The translations under genes were made by a program, and so were the position numbers. The notes under the pieces are model-generated. The model had not been told where the DNA came from. It saw nothing but the letters and a program-made list of their open reading frames with translations, and ran no database searches. 64,000 nucleotides of DNA from an uncultured Devosia sp. (lineage in GTDB: Bacteria; Pseudomonadota; Alphaproteobacteria; Rhizobiales; Devosiaceae). The stretch's first letter is position 1. Every line of letters begins with the position of its first letter. The stretch is taken from positions 1-64,000 of the forward strand of contig NZ_CAJXJS010000001.1 in the NCBI RefSeq assembly GCF_913055165.1. Direction: 5' to 3'. Shown here piece by piece: positions 18,715 to 26,773 of the stretch.

Positions 18715-21189
<2,475 letters not shown>

Positions 21190-21465: not shown

Positions 21466-22488
21466 ATGAAAAAGATCGGCTTCCTCTCTTTTGGTCATTG
21501 GAGCCCGTCGCCCAATTCGGGCACGCGAACGGCGTCGGACGCTCTCCTGCAGTCAATTGATCTGGCCGTGGCCGCAGAGGAGCTGGGCGCTGACGGGGCC
21601 TATTTCCGGGTGCATCATTTTGCCCGCCAGCTTGCCTCACCCTTTCCGCTTCTGGCGGCGGTGGGTGCGAAAACAAGCAAGATCGAGATCGGCACCGCCG
21701 TTATCGACATGCGCTACGAAAATCCGCTTTACATGGCCGAGGATGCCGGGGCGGCCGACCTGATCTCCGAGGGGCGGCTGCAATTGGGTATTTCGCGCGG
21801 CTCGCCCGAACAGGTGATCGATGGCTGGCGCTATTTCGGCTACGAGCCGGCCGAGGGCCAGACCGATGCCGACATGGCCCGGCTCAACGCAGAAATTTTC
21901 CTCAAGGCCCTGACCGGCCAGGGTTTTGCCCAGCCCAATCCGCGCCCCATGTTTCCCAATCCCCCCGGCATGCTCAGGCTCGAACCCTATTCCGAGGGTC
22001 TGCTCGAGCGCATCTGGTGGGGTGCGGCCAGCGACGCCACGGCCGTCTGGGCGGCCAAGATGGGCATGAATTTGCAATCCTCGACACTCAAATTCGACGA
22101 AAGCGGCAAACCCTTCCACATCCAGCAGGCCGAACAGATCCGTGCCTACCGCGCCGCCTGGAAGGAAGCCGGCCACACCCGCACCCCACGCGTTTCGGTC
22201 AGCCGCTCCATTTTCGCCCTCGTCAATGATCGGGACCGCATGTATTTCGGCTCTGGCCGACCCGAGGAAGACCAGTTCGGCTACATCGAACCGGAAAAGC
22301 GCGCCGTCTTCGGCCGCGGCTATACGGCCGAACCGGACAAGCTGATCGAGGAACTCAAGCGCGACGAGGCCATCGCCGAGGCCGATACACTGCTGCTGAC
22401 CGTGCCCAATCAACTGGGTGTGGACTACAATGCCCATGTCATCGAGAGCATCCTCAAATATGTCGCCCCCGGTCTGGGTTGGCGTTAG
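21466..22488 (+). CDS. LLM-class flavin-dependent oxidoreductase
   Basis: A 340-residue bacterial luciferase-like monooxygenase, a TIM-barrel flavin enzyme using FMNH2 or F420-type cofactor. Visible family features are MKKIGFLSFGHW at the start, the SIDLAVAAEELGADGAYFRVHHFA segment, KIEIGTAVIDMRYENPLYMAEDAGAADLISEGRLQLGISRGSP, and a late IWWGAASDATAVWAAKMGMNL. The substrate cannot be read. It stands alone: the 276 bases before it hold the gyrB terminator and no other gene, and the next gene is convergent and overlaps its stop by four bases. Confidence 0.88.
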   Translation: MKKIGFLSFGHWSPSPNSGTRTASDALLQSIDLAVAAEELGADGAYFRVHHFARQLASPFPLLAAVGAKTSKIEIGTAVIDMRYENPLYMAEDAGAADLISEGRLQLGISRGSPEQVIDGWRYFGYEPAEGQTDADMARLNAEIFLKALTGQGFAQPNPRPMFPNPPGMLRLEPYSEGLLERIWWGAASDATAVWAAKMGMNLQSSTLKFDESGKPFHIQQAEQIRAYRAAWKEAGHTRTPRVSVSRSIFALVNDRDRMYFGSGRPEEDQFGYIEPEKRAVFGRGYTAEPDKLIEELKRDEAIAEADTLLLTVPNQLGVDYNAHVIESILKYVAPGLGWR

Positions 22489-23015
22489 TCAGGCAAGCGA
22501 AATGGCGATTGGTCGCAATCATTGGCCCGCCAATAGCGCTCGACCGGCGTGAACGCCCCATTCGCCAGCAGTTCGACACGTGCGGCAAATGCCATGGCGC
22601 GGCATTCATCGGCGCCAGCGACGACGTGCACCATCTCGTGCAGCACCGTGAGCCGCCGCAGTGCCGGGGTTCCGTCGGCAGAAAACTGCGGGCAGACGAC
22701 CATGCGCACCCGGCCGTCATGGGCCGGCAGGTGCACATAGGCGGCAAACCGCGCGCAGGCGCCGCTGTTCTCCGCAGGTTCGATCAGCTCCACGGCGATC
22801 TCTCCGCCCCAATGCCGGGAGGCAAATTGTCCCTCCGTAAGGGCGTCCTGATAGGCAGTCACATCGACCCCGAAGTTCTCGGCCGCTAGTCCTGTCCGCG
22901 CCGTCTCAAAGGCGGCGATAGCGTCGTTGAACGCGGTCTGGACCGCATCGGCCCTGGGCTGGACAGCCGACAGGAGCAATATGGACAGGGCAAGCAAAGG
23001 CAAAAGCGCGCGCAT
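22485..23015 (-). CDS. secreted protein with HExxH metallopeptidase-like motif
   Basis: A 176-residue exported protein. I start it at 23015, where a signal peptide begins (MRALLPLLALSILLLSAVQPRADA); the longer frame upstream has no such sign. Near the C-terminus is HEMVH (126-130), followed by VVAGADECRAMAFAARVE, which offers acidic residues at 137 and 148 as a third zinc ligand, as in gluzincins. Four cysteines in the mature part could form disulfides. I do not recognise a named family. It is convergent with the oxidoreductase gene and divergent from the penicillin-binding protein gene, 258 bases away. Confidence 0.65.
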   Translation of the reverse strand: MRALLPLLALSILLLSAVQPRADAVQTAFNDAIAAFETARTGLAAENFGVDVTAYQDALTEGQFASRHWGGEIAVELIEPAENSGACARFAAYVHLPAHDGRVRMVVCPQFSADGTPALRRLTVLHEMVHVVAGADECRAMAFAARVELLANGAFTPVERYWRANDCDQSPFRLPD

Positions 23016-23273
23016 GACCGATGTGTTGCCCTGCCTGCTCTGCGCTGGCAAGAGCTGTGGCAGGTCTGTCACACATGCCGCACAAGTGGCGACTTGACCC
23101 ATAAACCGGCCACAATTGGCGCGGAGAAGCGTCTGCCATGTGCTGCTGGACCGCAGCGGGTGTTTAGCCAGTCGATATCGACCGATCTTAACCTCTTGCT
23201 TACCATTTGTTTCCCTTGCTGGACGAACAGGGTAGAAGCAGCTTGGATCCCTTCCCTTCACTAGGTTTGCCTG

Positions 23274-25991
23274 ATGGATTTCCGCATTTCGGCCGATGAT
23301 CGCGTTGGCGCTCCCAAGGATCGCCAGAACAAGACCCAGGCGCGGCCTGCGGCGAAGGGACAGCGCGTCGAGCCGACCATGGGACAGACCATGGCCTTCT
23401 CCGTGGATGAAGTCCGCACCGGTGGCGCCGGGGGCGGCGGTAAGCCGCCCAAATCACCGAAGAAGCCGGCGCGCAAGGGCAGGGCCGAACCGGCTCGCCC
23501 GCGCCGCAAGAAGCGTTCCGGCGGCCTGTTGATGGGCCTGTTGTGGTGGGGTTTTGTCGCCTGCCTTTGGGGTGGTCTGGCCGTGATAGGCGTTATCGTC
23601 TATTACGGGGCCCAACTGCCGTCCGCCGATACTTGGGCAATCCCCGAGCGTCCCCCAAATATTCGCATCCTGGCGGCCGATGGCAGCCTGATTTCCAATC
23701 GCGGTCAGACCGGCGGCGAGGCCATCACCTTCCGCGAGCTGCCCCAATATGTGCCGGCGGCCTTCATTGCCTCGGAAGACCGGCGCTTCATGAGCCATTT
23801 CGGCGTCGACCCGATCGGGCTGCTCTCGGTGGCCGTGGAAATGGTAGAAGCGCGCGGCGTGACCCGCGGCGCCTCGACCATCACCCAGCAGGTCGCCAAG
23901 AACCTGTTCCTTACACCGGACCAGACCTTGGGCCGCAAGGTGCAGGAAGCCATTCTCGCCGTCTGGCTGGAACAGAACTTCACCAAGGAAGAAATCCTCG
24001 AACTCTATATGAACCGGGTCTATTTCGGCTCGGGCGCCTACGGCATCGAGGCGGCGGCACAGACCTATTTCGGCGTTTCGGCGCGTAATCTTTCGTTGGG
24101 CCAGGCCGCCATGCTGGTCGGCATTCTGCCAGCACCCTCGGCCTATAATCCCAAGGCTAACCCCGATACCGCCCGGGACCGGCAGCGCCTTGTCCTCAAT
24201 GCCATGGCGCAGGAAGGCTATATCACCCGCGAAGAAGCCGACGCGGCCCGCATCGATCCCAACCAGACCATTCGCACCGTCGTCGCCGGTTCCGAATCCT
24301 ATGTCGCTGACTGGGTCGAAAGCCTGATGACCGCCTATATCGGCGAGATCGAAGGTGACGTGGTGGTCCAGACCACCATCGACTACAAGATGCAGAAAGA
24401 CGCCGAGTTCATCGTCAAGGAGGCGGTGGCCAATGAGGGGCCGAAGCGCGGCTTCTCCCAGGGGGCTCTCGTGGCGATGGATGTCGATGGTACGGTGCGC
24501 GCCATGGTGGGCGGCGTGGACTACCAGGCCAGCCAGTATAACCGGGCCATCACCGCCAAGCGCCAGCCGGGCTCGACCTTCAAGCCCTTCGTTTATATGG
24601 CCGCCATGGAGAAGGGCTACACGCCCGACACTTTGGCCGAGGACGCCCAATTTGAATATGAGGGCTGGAGCCCGCGCAATGCCTCGGGCAAATATGCCGG
24701 GACGGTCACCTTGCGGCAGGGCCTGGCCTATTCGCTCAACACCATCGCGGCACGACTGGCGATCGACGTCACACCCGAGAAGGTGATCGAAGTGGCCATG
24801 CGCATGGGCATTTCCTCCAATCTCACGCCTGTCCCCTCGATTGCGCTGGGCACCCAGGAAGTGAACCTGCTCGAGCTGACCAGTGCCTACGCGCCCTTCG
24901 CCAATGGTGGCATGGGGGTCATACCCAATGTCATCACCAAGATTTCGGACGTCCAGGGCAATGTGCTCTATGAGGCCTCCAATGCCGGACCGGGCCGGGT
25001 GGTCGACCCCAACGTGCTCGCCGAGATGAACGACATGCTCAAGACGGCCGTTGAAGTGGGGACCGGTCGCGGCGCCAATCTGGGTGGTTGGGACTTTGCC
25101 GGCAAGACGGGTACCAGCCAGAACGCCCGCGATGCCCTGTTCGTTGGCTACACTTCGGCCATGGTCACTGGCGTGTGGCTGGGCAATGACAACGACACCA
25201 AGACCACGCTCTCGGGTGGCAATGTGCCGGCCAATATCTGGTCCGAGTTCATGACCAAGGCGCATGCGGGCCGTTCGCCTGCATCCATTCCCGGTGGCTC
25301 CTATGCCGGCCAGCTGATCGCCCAGCAGATGATCGATCCCAATACCGGCATGCCGGCAATCGATCCGGCCACGGGTCAGCCCATGGTGCAATATGTCGAT
25401 GGGGGTACCGGTCAGCCGGTCCAGACGATGACCGACCCGACCACGGGGCAGGTCGTGGCCATTGACCCGGCGACCGGCCTGCCCATTGAGGGTCTGGCGC
25501 CTGTGGACAGCCAGTCTATCAACCCGCCGATCCAGACCGGAACCATGGTGGATCCGGCCACCGGACTACCGGTCGGCCTGCAATACGATCCAGCCACCGG
25601 GCTCAACTATGATCCGGCGACGGGCGCGCAGTATGATCCCGCCACCGGTCTTCCAATCGATCCGGCAACAGGTCTGCCCCTGGCTACCGGAGGCGAGGCC
25701 GCGGTGCAGTACGATGCCAATGGTCAGGCCATTGACCCGGTCACCGGCTTCCCGCTGCAACAGCAGGCCAATGGGTTTGGAACCGCGCCTATCGACCCTG
25801 AAACGGGCCTGCCGATGACGCTCATCGTCGATCCGGCGACCGGCCAACAGGTCTGGGTGTCCAGCGCCCCCGCCGGACAGCAGGCTGTTCCCCAGGGTCA
25901 GATTGTCCCGCCCGGCCAGGTACAGCAACAGCCGACTTATCAGGAGCCGCAGCGCCAGCGCACTCTGATGGACTTGATCTTCGGCAACTAA
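23274..25991 (+). CDS. class A penicillin-binding protein 1A with DPATG-repeat tail
   Basis: A bifunctional peptidoglycan glycosyltransferase and transpeptidase of 905 residues. The cytoplasmic N-terminus (1-85) is basic and ends in a Lys/Arg cluster before a membrane span at about 90-112. The glycosyltransferase has catalytic Glu168 in ASEDRRF and the RGASTITQQ motif; the transpeptidase has S434-T-F-K437, S487-L-N489 and K611-T-G613. From about 685 to 860 comes a tail of about a dozen imperfect repeats of the form x-D-P-A-T-G-x-P, then a Gln/Pro-rich end. The tail is longer and more regular than I expect for the family. A strong terminator follows. Confidence 0.92.
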   Translation: MDFRISADDRVGAPKDRQNKTQARPAAKGQRVEPTMGQTMAFSVDEVRTGGAGGGGKPPKSPKKPARKGRAEPARPRRKKRSGGLLMGLLWWGFVACLWGGLAVIGVIVYYGAQLPSADTWAIPERPPNIRILAADGSLISNRGQTGGEAITFRELPQYVPAAFIASEDRRFMSHFGVDPIGLLSVAVEMVEARGVTRGASTITQQVAKNLFLTPDQTLGRKVQEAILAVWLEQNFTKEEILELYMNRVYFGSGAYGIEAAAQTYFGVSARNLSLGQAAMLVGILPAPSAYNPKANPDTARDRQRLVLNAMAQEGYITREEADAARIDPNQTIRTVVAGSESYVADWVESLMTAYIGEIEGDVVVQTTIDYKMQKDAEFIVKEAVANEGPKRGFSQGALVAMDVDGTVRAMVGGVDYQASQYNRAITAKRQPGSTFKPFVYMAAMEKGYTPDTLAEDAQFEYEGWSPRNASGKYAGTVTLRQGLAYSLNTIAARLAIDVTPEKVIEVAMRMGISSNLTPVPSIALGTQEVNLLELTSAYAPFANGGMGVIPNVITKISDVQGNVLYEASNAGPGRVVDPNVLAEMNDMLKTAVEVGTGRGANLGGWDFAGKTGTSQNARDALFVGYTSAMVTGVWLGNDNDTKTTLSGGNVPANIWSEFMTKAHAGRSPASIPGGSYAGQLIAQQMIDPNTGMPAIDPATGQPMVQYVDGGTGQPVQTMTDPTTGQVVAIDPATGLPIEGLAPVDSQSINPPIQTGTMVDPATGLPVGLQYDPATGLNYDPATGAQYDPATGLPIDPATGLPLATGGEAAVQYDANGQAIDPVTGFPLQQQANGFGTAPIDPETGLPMTLIVDPATGQQVWVSSAPAGQQAVPQGQIVPPGQVQQQPTYQEPQRQRTLMDLIFGN

Positions 25992-26083: not shown

Positions 26084-26773
26084 TCAAATCACCAGGATCG
26101 GTGCTCCATTGGGAACGCGCTCATAAAGATCGATGACATCGTGGAACAACAAGCGCACGCAGCCGGACGACACCGCCTTGCCGATCGAGGCGACGTCCAT
26201 GGTGCCGTGGATCCGGTAGAGGGTGTCCCGATTGCCCTGATGGATATAGAGCGCGCGGGCGCCCAGGGCATTGAGCAGGCCCGGGGGCTGACCATGACGA
26301 TAGATTTCCAGTTCCGGCTGGCGCGCGATCATCTCGGCCGGTGGCGTCCAGACAGGCCATTTCCGTTTATAGGCGATGTGACCCTGGCCACTCCATTCGA
26401 AGCCGGCGCGTCCCAGCCCGACGCCATAGCGCATTGCCCGGCCCGATGGCATGGTGAAATAGAGGAAGTAACTGGTGGTATCGACGACCACCCGACCCGC
26501 TGGCTCCCCGGTTGGGTTGACGACGTCCTGTCGCCAGTAGTCCGGGTTCATCAGCGAAATGTCGGCCGCCGGTACGGGATGTGCTTCCTCCGGGCGGGCT
26601 GCATACATGGCCAGCACATCGAGGGGTATGGTGGGGCGGGTAGGCGTCGCCACCGCAGTGGCCAGGCGTGTGGTGCCGCTGGTGGAGCAGCCGGCAAGAG
26701 TGAGAGCGCCGAGGCCGGCAAGGCCGGCCATGACGGCGCGGCGCGACAGGGTCGCGTCGGTAAATGAAGACAT
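26084..26773 (-). CDS. L,D-transpeptidase, YkuD family
   Basis: A 229-residue exported enzyme that would form 3-3 cross-links in peptidoglycan or attach lipoproteins to it. The N-terminus combines a twin arginine (SRRAVMAG) with a hydrophobic core and the lipobox LAGC, so it is probably a lipoprotein, possibly Tat-exported. The YkuD signature is complete: His189 in HGTMDVASIG and catalytic Cys205 in SSGCVRLL. It faces the penicillin-binding protein gene, so two cell-wall enzymes are neighbours, though not one operon. Confidence 0.9.
   Translation of the reverse strand: MSSFTDATLSRRAVMAGLAGLGALTLAGCSTSGTTRLATAVATPTRPTIPLDVLAMYAARPEEAHPVPAADISLMNPDYWRQDVVNPTGEPAGRVVVDTTSYFLYFTMPSGRAMRYGVGLGRAGFEWSGQGHIAYKRKWPVWTPPAEMIARQPELEIYRHGQPPGLLNALGARALYIHQGNRDTLYRIHGTMDVASIGKAVSSGCVRLLFHDVIDLYERVPNGAPILVI

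Follow-up and report, generated by a model that had tools for sequence, protein, structure and literature searches.

A DPxTG repeat tail of variable unit number on PBP1a of Devosia, and a conserved terminal peptide as candidate docking motif

The window analysed here is a stretch of 64,000 nucleotides from an uncultured Devosia sp. (contig NZ_CAJXJS010000001.1, positions 1 to 64,000), and it carries a gene whose product, judged by its domains, is a PBP1a-type bifunctional class A penicillin-binding protein (PBP) of this Devosia species. The transglycosylase and transpeptidase domains are found in one chain, and the cut-off of the NCBIfam family TIGR02074 is exceeded (Table 1). The transpeptidase domain is followed by a tail of repeat units of the form D-P-x-T-G, then by a Pro/Gln-rich stretch, and finally by the terminal peptide QRTLMDLIFGN. 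The repeat units and this terminal tip are the subject of the present analysis.

Table 1. Features of the PBP1a gene and its neighbours (window positions)
Feature	Position	Strand	Basis
PBP1a-family class A penicillin-binding protein, 905 amino acids (aa)	23274..25991	+	TIGR02074, 602.8 bits vs cut-off 508.75
Predicted membrane helix, residues 84-113	23523..23612	+	Hydrophobicity by eye; helix in full-length model, block pLDDT (predicted local distance difference test) 64-83
Transglycosylase (Transgly) domain, residues 145-311	23706..24206	+	Pfam PF00912, 212.8 bits
Transpeptidase domain, residues 397-660	24462..25253	+	Pfam PF00905, 114.5 bits
DPxTG repeat region (predicted hairpins), 12 DPxTG + 1 DGGTG	25332..25853	+	Motif counts, genus alignment, pN/pS (ratio of nonsynonymous to synonymous change)
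Strict tandem octads YDPATGLN YDPATGAQ YDPATGLP IDPATGLP	25584..25679	+	Part scoring as OCRE
Pro/Gln-rich low-confidence linker, residues 864-893	25863..25952	+	pLDDT <50 at tail-model residues 206-231 (866-891 of the protein)
Conserved C-terminal peptide QRTLMDLIFGN, proposed docking motif	25956..25988	+	Conservation; helix 898-903 in models
L,D-transpeptidase (YkuD)	26084..26773	-	Pfam PF03734
Open reading frame (ORF) upstream of PBP1a	22485..23261	-	No Pfam match at E<=0.001
gyrB	18736..21189

Twelve strict DPxTG units are present, with the Asp at residues 688, 697, 721, 731, 760, 772, 780, 788, 796, 821, 841 and 853, together with a single DGGTG unit (Asp 709), and their codons span 25335-25844. 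When the 221-residue tail was shuffled 20,000 times, DPxTG appeared 0.03 times on average and at most twice, and a six-frame reading of the whole window gives 14 DPxTG, 12 of which lie in this tail. The dozen or so DPATG-like units that the initial annotation had placed after the transpeptidase domain, at 25325-25860, are therefore real, but their array is less regular than described there: the successive spacings are 9, 24, 10, 29, 12, 8, 8, 8, 25, 20 and 12 residues, and strict tandem octads are confined to residues 771-802. No tandem repeat was found in the window DNA by Tandem Repeats Finder, the 24-nucleotide repeat copies share a mean identity of 64%, and the longest exact direct repeat is of 14 nucleotides. 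Because of this low identity and the lack of a tandem array, the DNA copies are judged to be old. The earlier idea that the repeated DNA can expand or shrink holds for the unit number, which differs between species, but not for a freshly duplicating array. The tail is acidic: its 16 Asp and 4 Glu face only 2 Arg, and Lys is absent.

The codons of the units are constrained well beyond the remainder of the tail. With 71 genus proteins aligned by codons and the window protein compared with the 70 others, pN/pS is 0.529 for the rest of the tail, 0.184 for the catalytic part, 0.075 for the last ten codons and 0.055 for the D, P/G, T and G codons, the last value being somewhat favourable as the alignment tends to align the motif and omits deleted units. 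A zero count of nonsynonymous changes between the copies was set aside as circular, the copies having been selected by the motif. The consensus over 619 units from 73 proteins extends to the flanking positions, with I/V at -1 (82%), Q/L/M at +5 (87%), P at +6 (65%) and V/M/L/I at +7 (85%). The best-kept unit, at residue 688, is present in 68 of the 71 proteins, others near both ends in 60-67, and the DGGTG unit at 709 in 38; the first three octads, those with YDPATG (772-792), align in 3-4 proteins, the window protein included. No unit is kept in all 71. Since the motif codons are constrained, yet no unit is kept throughout, selection acts on the units as units, with their number free to change.

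The distribution of the tail was followed through loci of increasing distance. Among named genomes, 38 loci were found, of which 32 (L035-L066) carry the same gene, 31 of these aligned at 66-90% identity; the other six are distant. Within the genus, sampled with one genome per species, a PBP1a match is found in 75 of 75 genomes, and 74 loci were extracted (G062, where the match stops at residue 572, was excluded; L115 and L116 are partial). The genus proteins hold from 4 to 12 DPxTG, most commonly 8 (73 proteins, without L111), in tails of 143-260 residues with a median of 226 (72 measurable tails). The repeat number, which the initial annotation had proposed to compare among relatives, is hence not fixed, and the tail, with its codon constraint, departs in both respects from the counter-scenario set out there, namely a fixed length and no conservation beyond composition. 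In Devosia aurantiaca (L059 and L111) the PBP1a frame stops after 610 aa, which may reflect a sequencing error, given that the gene is likely essential.

Outside the genus, a PBP1a match is found in 132 of 136 genomes of the family and in 217 of 249 genomes of the order. The family set of 40 loci comprises 39 from 38 genomes of other genera, two of them (L154, L157) cut by contig ends, and a second copy, L163, from the genus genome G019; the 39 loci of other genera contain no DPxTG. L163 (G019:C1:2197390-2200600) is a second PBP1a-like gene with one DPNTG and one DADTG, and is devoid of the tip. Likewise, the 40 order loci (20 best-scoring and 20 hand-chosen) show no repeat tail apart from a single NPGTG in L178, and no DPxTG occurs in the tail part of 29 class-level loci, among which L217 repeats the gene of L215. 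In this sample, as far as the compared sequences tell, the repeat tail is a Devosia feature. A tree was built from 111 catalytic regions, with 13 rows skipped and 9 rows from the order included; on it the repeat label needs three changes, at least two of them forced by starred branches; a single change had been seen in a 68-row tree with only seven repeat-less rows, and was given up with the larger tree. One gain with losses, or several gains, may both be compatible with the tree. In the window's own genome, a query with the tail is strong on itself only, with the next match at an E value of 0.025, and a profile of the repeat run over 398 genomes of the phylum found one other protein, which is unrelated. 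This protein (L247), a predicted membrane protein of 317 aa, comes from a different lineage of the phylum; it has about five DPxTG octads at its end, and this array is of convergent origin.

The tip begins with RTLMD in every one of the 71 genus proteins aligned, a constancy that no single repeat unit reaches. Equivalent PBP1a ends occur across the family and order, for example RTLVDLLGDIFGG, FFRRLFGG and GFLDRLFR, and the linker before them is often short, variable in length and unrelated in composition. A loose rule for the terminal motif is matched by all 73 genus loci, by 34 of the 38 family loci and by 38 of the 40 order loci, and the two remaining order loci have it within the last 60 residues, whereas shuffling of the last 60 residues gives 1.1-1.7 terminal motifs expected per set; these counts leave out L111 (broken), L154 and L157 (contig ends) and L217 (same gene as L215). 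All the tip rules (terminal, linker and post-domain) were set after the sequences had been seen, and the shuffle controls given here and below do not correct for the choice of rule. One order locus, L197 (G596), has a PBP1a tail with TYPQ-type repeats of its own, yet ends in PGFFRRLFGG.

The tip recurs in two further protein families. A DNA pattern for T-L-phi-D-phi-phi-F-G (phi, a hydrophobic residue) matches three genes in the window's genome, and the reversed pattern none. Besides PBP1a, these are an SGNH/DUF459 protein, in which the motif stands just after a signal-peptide-like start (RRRTLFDLLFGEE), and a Peptidase_M15_2/DUF882 protein with a signal-peptide-like start, in which it stands after the domain (GRTLMDVLFGGN); both starts were judged by eye. 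A lytic transglycosylase gene adjoins the SGNH gene, and the M15_2 gene lies downstream of an L,D-transpeptidase gene. Across the 75 genus genomes the pattern matches 201 times and is missing from none: 51 genomes have three matches, 21 have two, 2 have one and 1 has four. T-L-x-D is imposed by the pattern itself. The reversed pattern, which preserves base make-up and not coding structure, has no match. The 68 distinct places examined fall into 29 SGNH, 23 M15_2, 15 PBP1a and one other; they stem from 70 loci, namely 30 listed matches (15 PBP1a, 8 SGNH, 7 M15_2) and 40 hand-picked as non-PBP1a. The one place outside the three families, L341, is a 452-aa ORF starting MTKTLMDMIFGGG, with no signal peptide by eye. 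In one contig (G031:C30) the SGNH and M15_2 motif genes (L344 and L345) are about 10 kb apart, and two pattern matches in G048:C12 are spaced in the same way.

Of 121 genomes of the order, 116 have an M15_2 match and 104 an SGNH match. For the 30 best-scoring loci of each, the motif is present in 17 of 29 M15_2 post-domain regions (shuffled mean 0.29, maximum 3; L273 gave no ORF) and in 10 of 21 scorable SGNH N-terminal linkers (shuffled mean 0.03, maximum 1), as well as in 34 of 40 PBP1a ends (shuffled mean 0.09, maximum 2). The misses L257 and L258 show a looser form of the motif, sequences close to it such as GFLKRLFRG stand in several of the SGNH linkers scored as misses, and four unscored SGNH loci (L287, L290, L303, L310) show the motif. 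The form T-L or S-L-x-D is found in other genera of the family, in M15_2 of L254 and SGNH of L283 and L284, while L253 has TLLGWMFG; elsewhere in the order, PBP1a, M15_2 and SGNH mostly have phi-phi-x-x-phi-F-G. As a rough background, 798 kb of the order genome G517, where the M15_2 and SGNH genes lie on other contigs and the PBP1a frame is tipless, gave 10 motifs in 704 mechanically chosen ORFs, one of them among the 91 ORFs that a crude hydrophobicity rule classed as exported.

The repeat units resemble the turn of a known mini-protein. Chignolin folds as a hairpin in which Tyr2 pairs with Trp9 and the strands are paired at positions equivalent to -1 and +6 of a unit. The AlphaFold model of the tail likewise has strand residues at -1 and +6 of all 13 units, DGGTG included, this being a prediction in which pairing partners were not taken from coordinates. 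No strand residue falls within DPxTG, except the D itself in two units. The block pLDDT of the units is 81-89 for 11 of the 13, and 71 and 51 for the other two; over the whole tail model it is at least 70 at 150 of 245 residues. The same unit secondary structure recurs in the full-length model, which is otherwise poor. In the structure prediction that the initial annotation had called for, all the units are modelled as hairpin turns, and the Pro/Gln linker is left at low confidence. The single Asp of each unit fits a beta-turn in such a model. Chignolin itself is described as a 10-residue mini-protein, YYDPETGTWY (PMC10444755), and a 15-mer with YYDPETG is reported to form, alone, a beta-hairpin-like structure by circular dichroism and to refold after heating (PMC3398312). 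The tail shares with chignolin the D-P-x-T-G turn and the modelled strand positions; it differs in that its turn is natural and repeated 13 times, and in that an aliphatic residue or Pro replaces the Tyr/Trp pair.

These observations could be united by a mechanism to which we assign roughly even chances: a hairpin-repeat spacer presents a docking peptide that is common to three envelope proteins with a common putative periplasmic partner. Each DPxTG unit would form a tight chignolin-type beta-turn with no metal needed, so that the tail would be a string of short beta-hairpins, not a plain random coil, holding RTLMDLIFGN away from the transpeptidase domain. RTLMDLIFGN would be a short linear docking motif rather than a sorting or processing signal, because its places differ among the three proteins (at the C-terminus, after the signal peptide, after the domain). 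The motif in the linkers of the apparently exported M15_2/DUF882 and SGNH/DUF459 proteins would dock these on the putative partner of PBP1a, and the docking would bring the three together at wall-growth sites. The initial annotation had suggested that the tail places the enzyme by binding calcium, glycan strands or a scaffold; a role as a scaffold contact or in placing the enzyme is still the best kind of explanation, but the calcium route is unsupported. A wider form of the proposal, held tentatively and somewhat short of even, is that RTLxDLLFG, and more widely phi-phi-x-x-phi-F-G, serves as a periplasmic docking code of Hyphomicrobiales, by which one putative hub recruits PBP1a (in Devosia with a repeat tail of variable length), a relative of M15-like peptidases and an SGNH hydrolase to the growth zone.

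Several points weigh against this proposal. The packing of the predicted hairpins is unproven, the alignment behind the tail model being shallow (32 near relatives), with a predicted template modelling score of 0.35 for the tail and a pLDDT of 40 for the full-length model. The stability of the hairpins may also be marginal, because most units have no Tyr/Trp pair but I or V at -1 and P at +6. The docking partner is putative only, and the tip could bind membrane instead. Fewer than three pattern matches are found in 23 of the 75 genus genomes; the order-wide M15_2 and SGNH loci are no random draw; nine of the 30 SGNH loci had no anchor and were left unscored; and outside the family the motif is present in only 13 of 25 M15_2 and 6 of 17 SGNH regions. 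Similarly, only 6 of 28 PBP1a loci of the wider class have the terminal motif, with five more having it within the last 60 residues, and the PBP1a frame of G517 ends without the tip. Finally, the C-terminal disordered region of Clostridioides difficile PBP1 is reported to be dispensable for growth, the cells being slightly more curved (PMC12539705).

The main rival for the tip is that it forms an amphipathic helix on the inner or outer membrane, pressing the linker there in all three proteins, with no need of protein binding. The models do predict a short terminal helix, and in the genus tails F, L, I, V, M and W make up a fraction of 0.42 of the last 12 residues, compared with 0.22 of the remainder. 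However, PBP1a already has a predicted membrane helix, and the peptides RTLFDLLFG, RSLFDILFG and RTLMDVLFG in other family genera (L283, L284 and L254) are more exact than membrane binding would require, so that we regard this alternative as unlikely, if a serious contender. The main rival for the repeat part is a disordered sensing tail, in which the DPxTG units merely keep the tail soluble. Long disordered regions at the outer C-terminus have been described for class A PBPs (PMC12539705), and the PBP1a linkers of the order differ in length and composition. The constraint on the D, P, T and G codons nevertheless exceeds what composition alone would ask for, and the model has confident local hairpins; a purely disordered tail is thus improbable, to much the same degree.

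The docking proposal must also be set against a third possibility, that the octads fold into a small OCRE-like beta-sheet able to bind proline-rich peptides. The Pfam family OCRE (PF17780) scores 34.4 bits on the whole protein and 41.5 bits on the tail, above its cut-off of 24.7, and chains of RBM5 and RBM10, which share octads with D-P-x-T-G, are the only sequence matches in the PDB at E up to 10 (E 0.05-0.14). OCRE chains also top the VIA-align list against the tail model, with Z of 2.6 over 49 residues and 2.4 over 44, in a tie with two unrelated rows (Z 2.1 and 2.0); Z reaches 2 in four of 985 chains and 5 in none, no fold match to the tail model has E<=0.001, and the OCRE-fold test by Foldseek gave E 1.4. 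OCRE is described as consisting of five imperfect octamers in which aromatic residues form triplets (PMC5127646). The window tail, by contrast, belongs to a bacterial envelope protein and has four strict octads, three of them with a single Tyr and the remaining one without Tyr. The OCRE match at E<=0.01 is confined to 5 of 32 tails, and among 289 genomes of the class OCRE exceeds its cut-off in two, one of them that of the window. As the aromatic triplets are absent and three of the four octads are restricted to very few species, membership in the OCRE family was rejected; an OCRE-like sheet is very unlikely, and the score probably reflects convergence on the same turn. Other Pfam matches among the 32 tails at E<=0.01 include Plectin repeat (11 tails, best 6.6e-05), DUF4585 (8), SBDS_domain_II (7), YL1_C (3) and others; the four named are taken to be short DPxTG-like matches, and Plectin repeat was rejected in the window tail, where it scores 16.5-16.6 bits, below its cut-off of 20.5.

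The initial annotation had compared the Asp/Gly spacing with calcium-binding loops, whose classical patterns are DxDxDG in EF, dockerin and TSP3 loops and GGxGxD in RTX repeats. That the tail binds calcium or glycan strands directly would agree with its acidity and its expected position facing the wall, but DxDxDG, DxDx[DNS]G and GGxGxD are absent from the window tail and from 71 genus tails, the much looser D.[DN].[DN] occurs 0 times in the former and 7 times in the latter, and the Pfam matches at E up to 1 include no calcium-binding family. This is the least credible of the alternatives.

The neighbourhood of the gene is partly kept among relatives. The L,D-transpeptidase gene is adjacent and convergent to PBP1a, and a relative is found by tblastn in the downstream flank of 16 of 32 PBP1a loci. 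The ORF on the other side is divergent, and has a relative in the upstream flank of 26 of the 32. The gene gyrB lies near PBP1a, and in the locus L400, whose genome belongs to a different family of the order, one piece of 18 kb contains PBP1a together with an ORF that looks GyrB-like by eye; the linkage of gyrB and PBP1a may thus be old. PADLOC found nothing.

To our knowledge, how PBP1a is placed in the cell is not settled. In Agrobacterium tumefaciens it is described as the essential polar-growth synthase and the main synthase of elongation (PMC8546619); growth there is unipolar, relies on PBP1a and proceeds without RodA/PBP2 (PMC8546619, PMC11527210), and most label incorporation at the new pole is credited to L,D-transpeptidases (PMC11527210). 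By analogy, Devosia PBP1a may likewise be the main elongation synthase. A motif common to PBP1a and two apparently exported proteins would offer a direct bait for the placing factor, and the Devosia tail, as a candidate natural array of chignolin-type turns, would allow the effects of linker length and stiffness on a wall synthase to be studied. Among the matches listed in a literature search over titles and starts of abstracts of open PMC papers, with no query for the tip sequence, there was no paper on a hairpin-repeat linker or a shared tip. A figure legend on A. tumefaciens PBP1a gives predicted disorder, and the accessible parts of that paper mention no tail motif (PMC8546619). The two proteins belong to the same order and are both class A PBPs, and the PBP1a proteins sampled from the order have a variable linker and mostly a terminal motif; unlike the other Hyphomicrobiales proteins, the Devosia one has a DPxTG linker, found only in this genus here.

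The combination of a variable linker and a conserved terminal peptide that docks partners is familiar from the tails of SSB and FtsZ. The Devosia tail would follow the same plan, and differs from them in being periplasmic and in having a tip that also occurs internally in other proteins. C-terminal extensions of class A PBPs are already known, and the Devosia tail is a variant of these. The PBP1 proteins of Bacillus subtilis and C. difficile likewise have a long non-catalytic C-terminal extension facing the wall, and that of B. subtilis is regarded as a sensing tail (PMC12539705). Unlike these disordered regions of Bacillota, the Devosia tail has a repeated turn motif and a conserved tip that it shares with other proteins.

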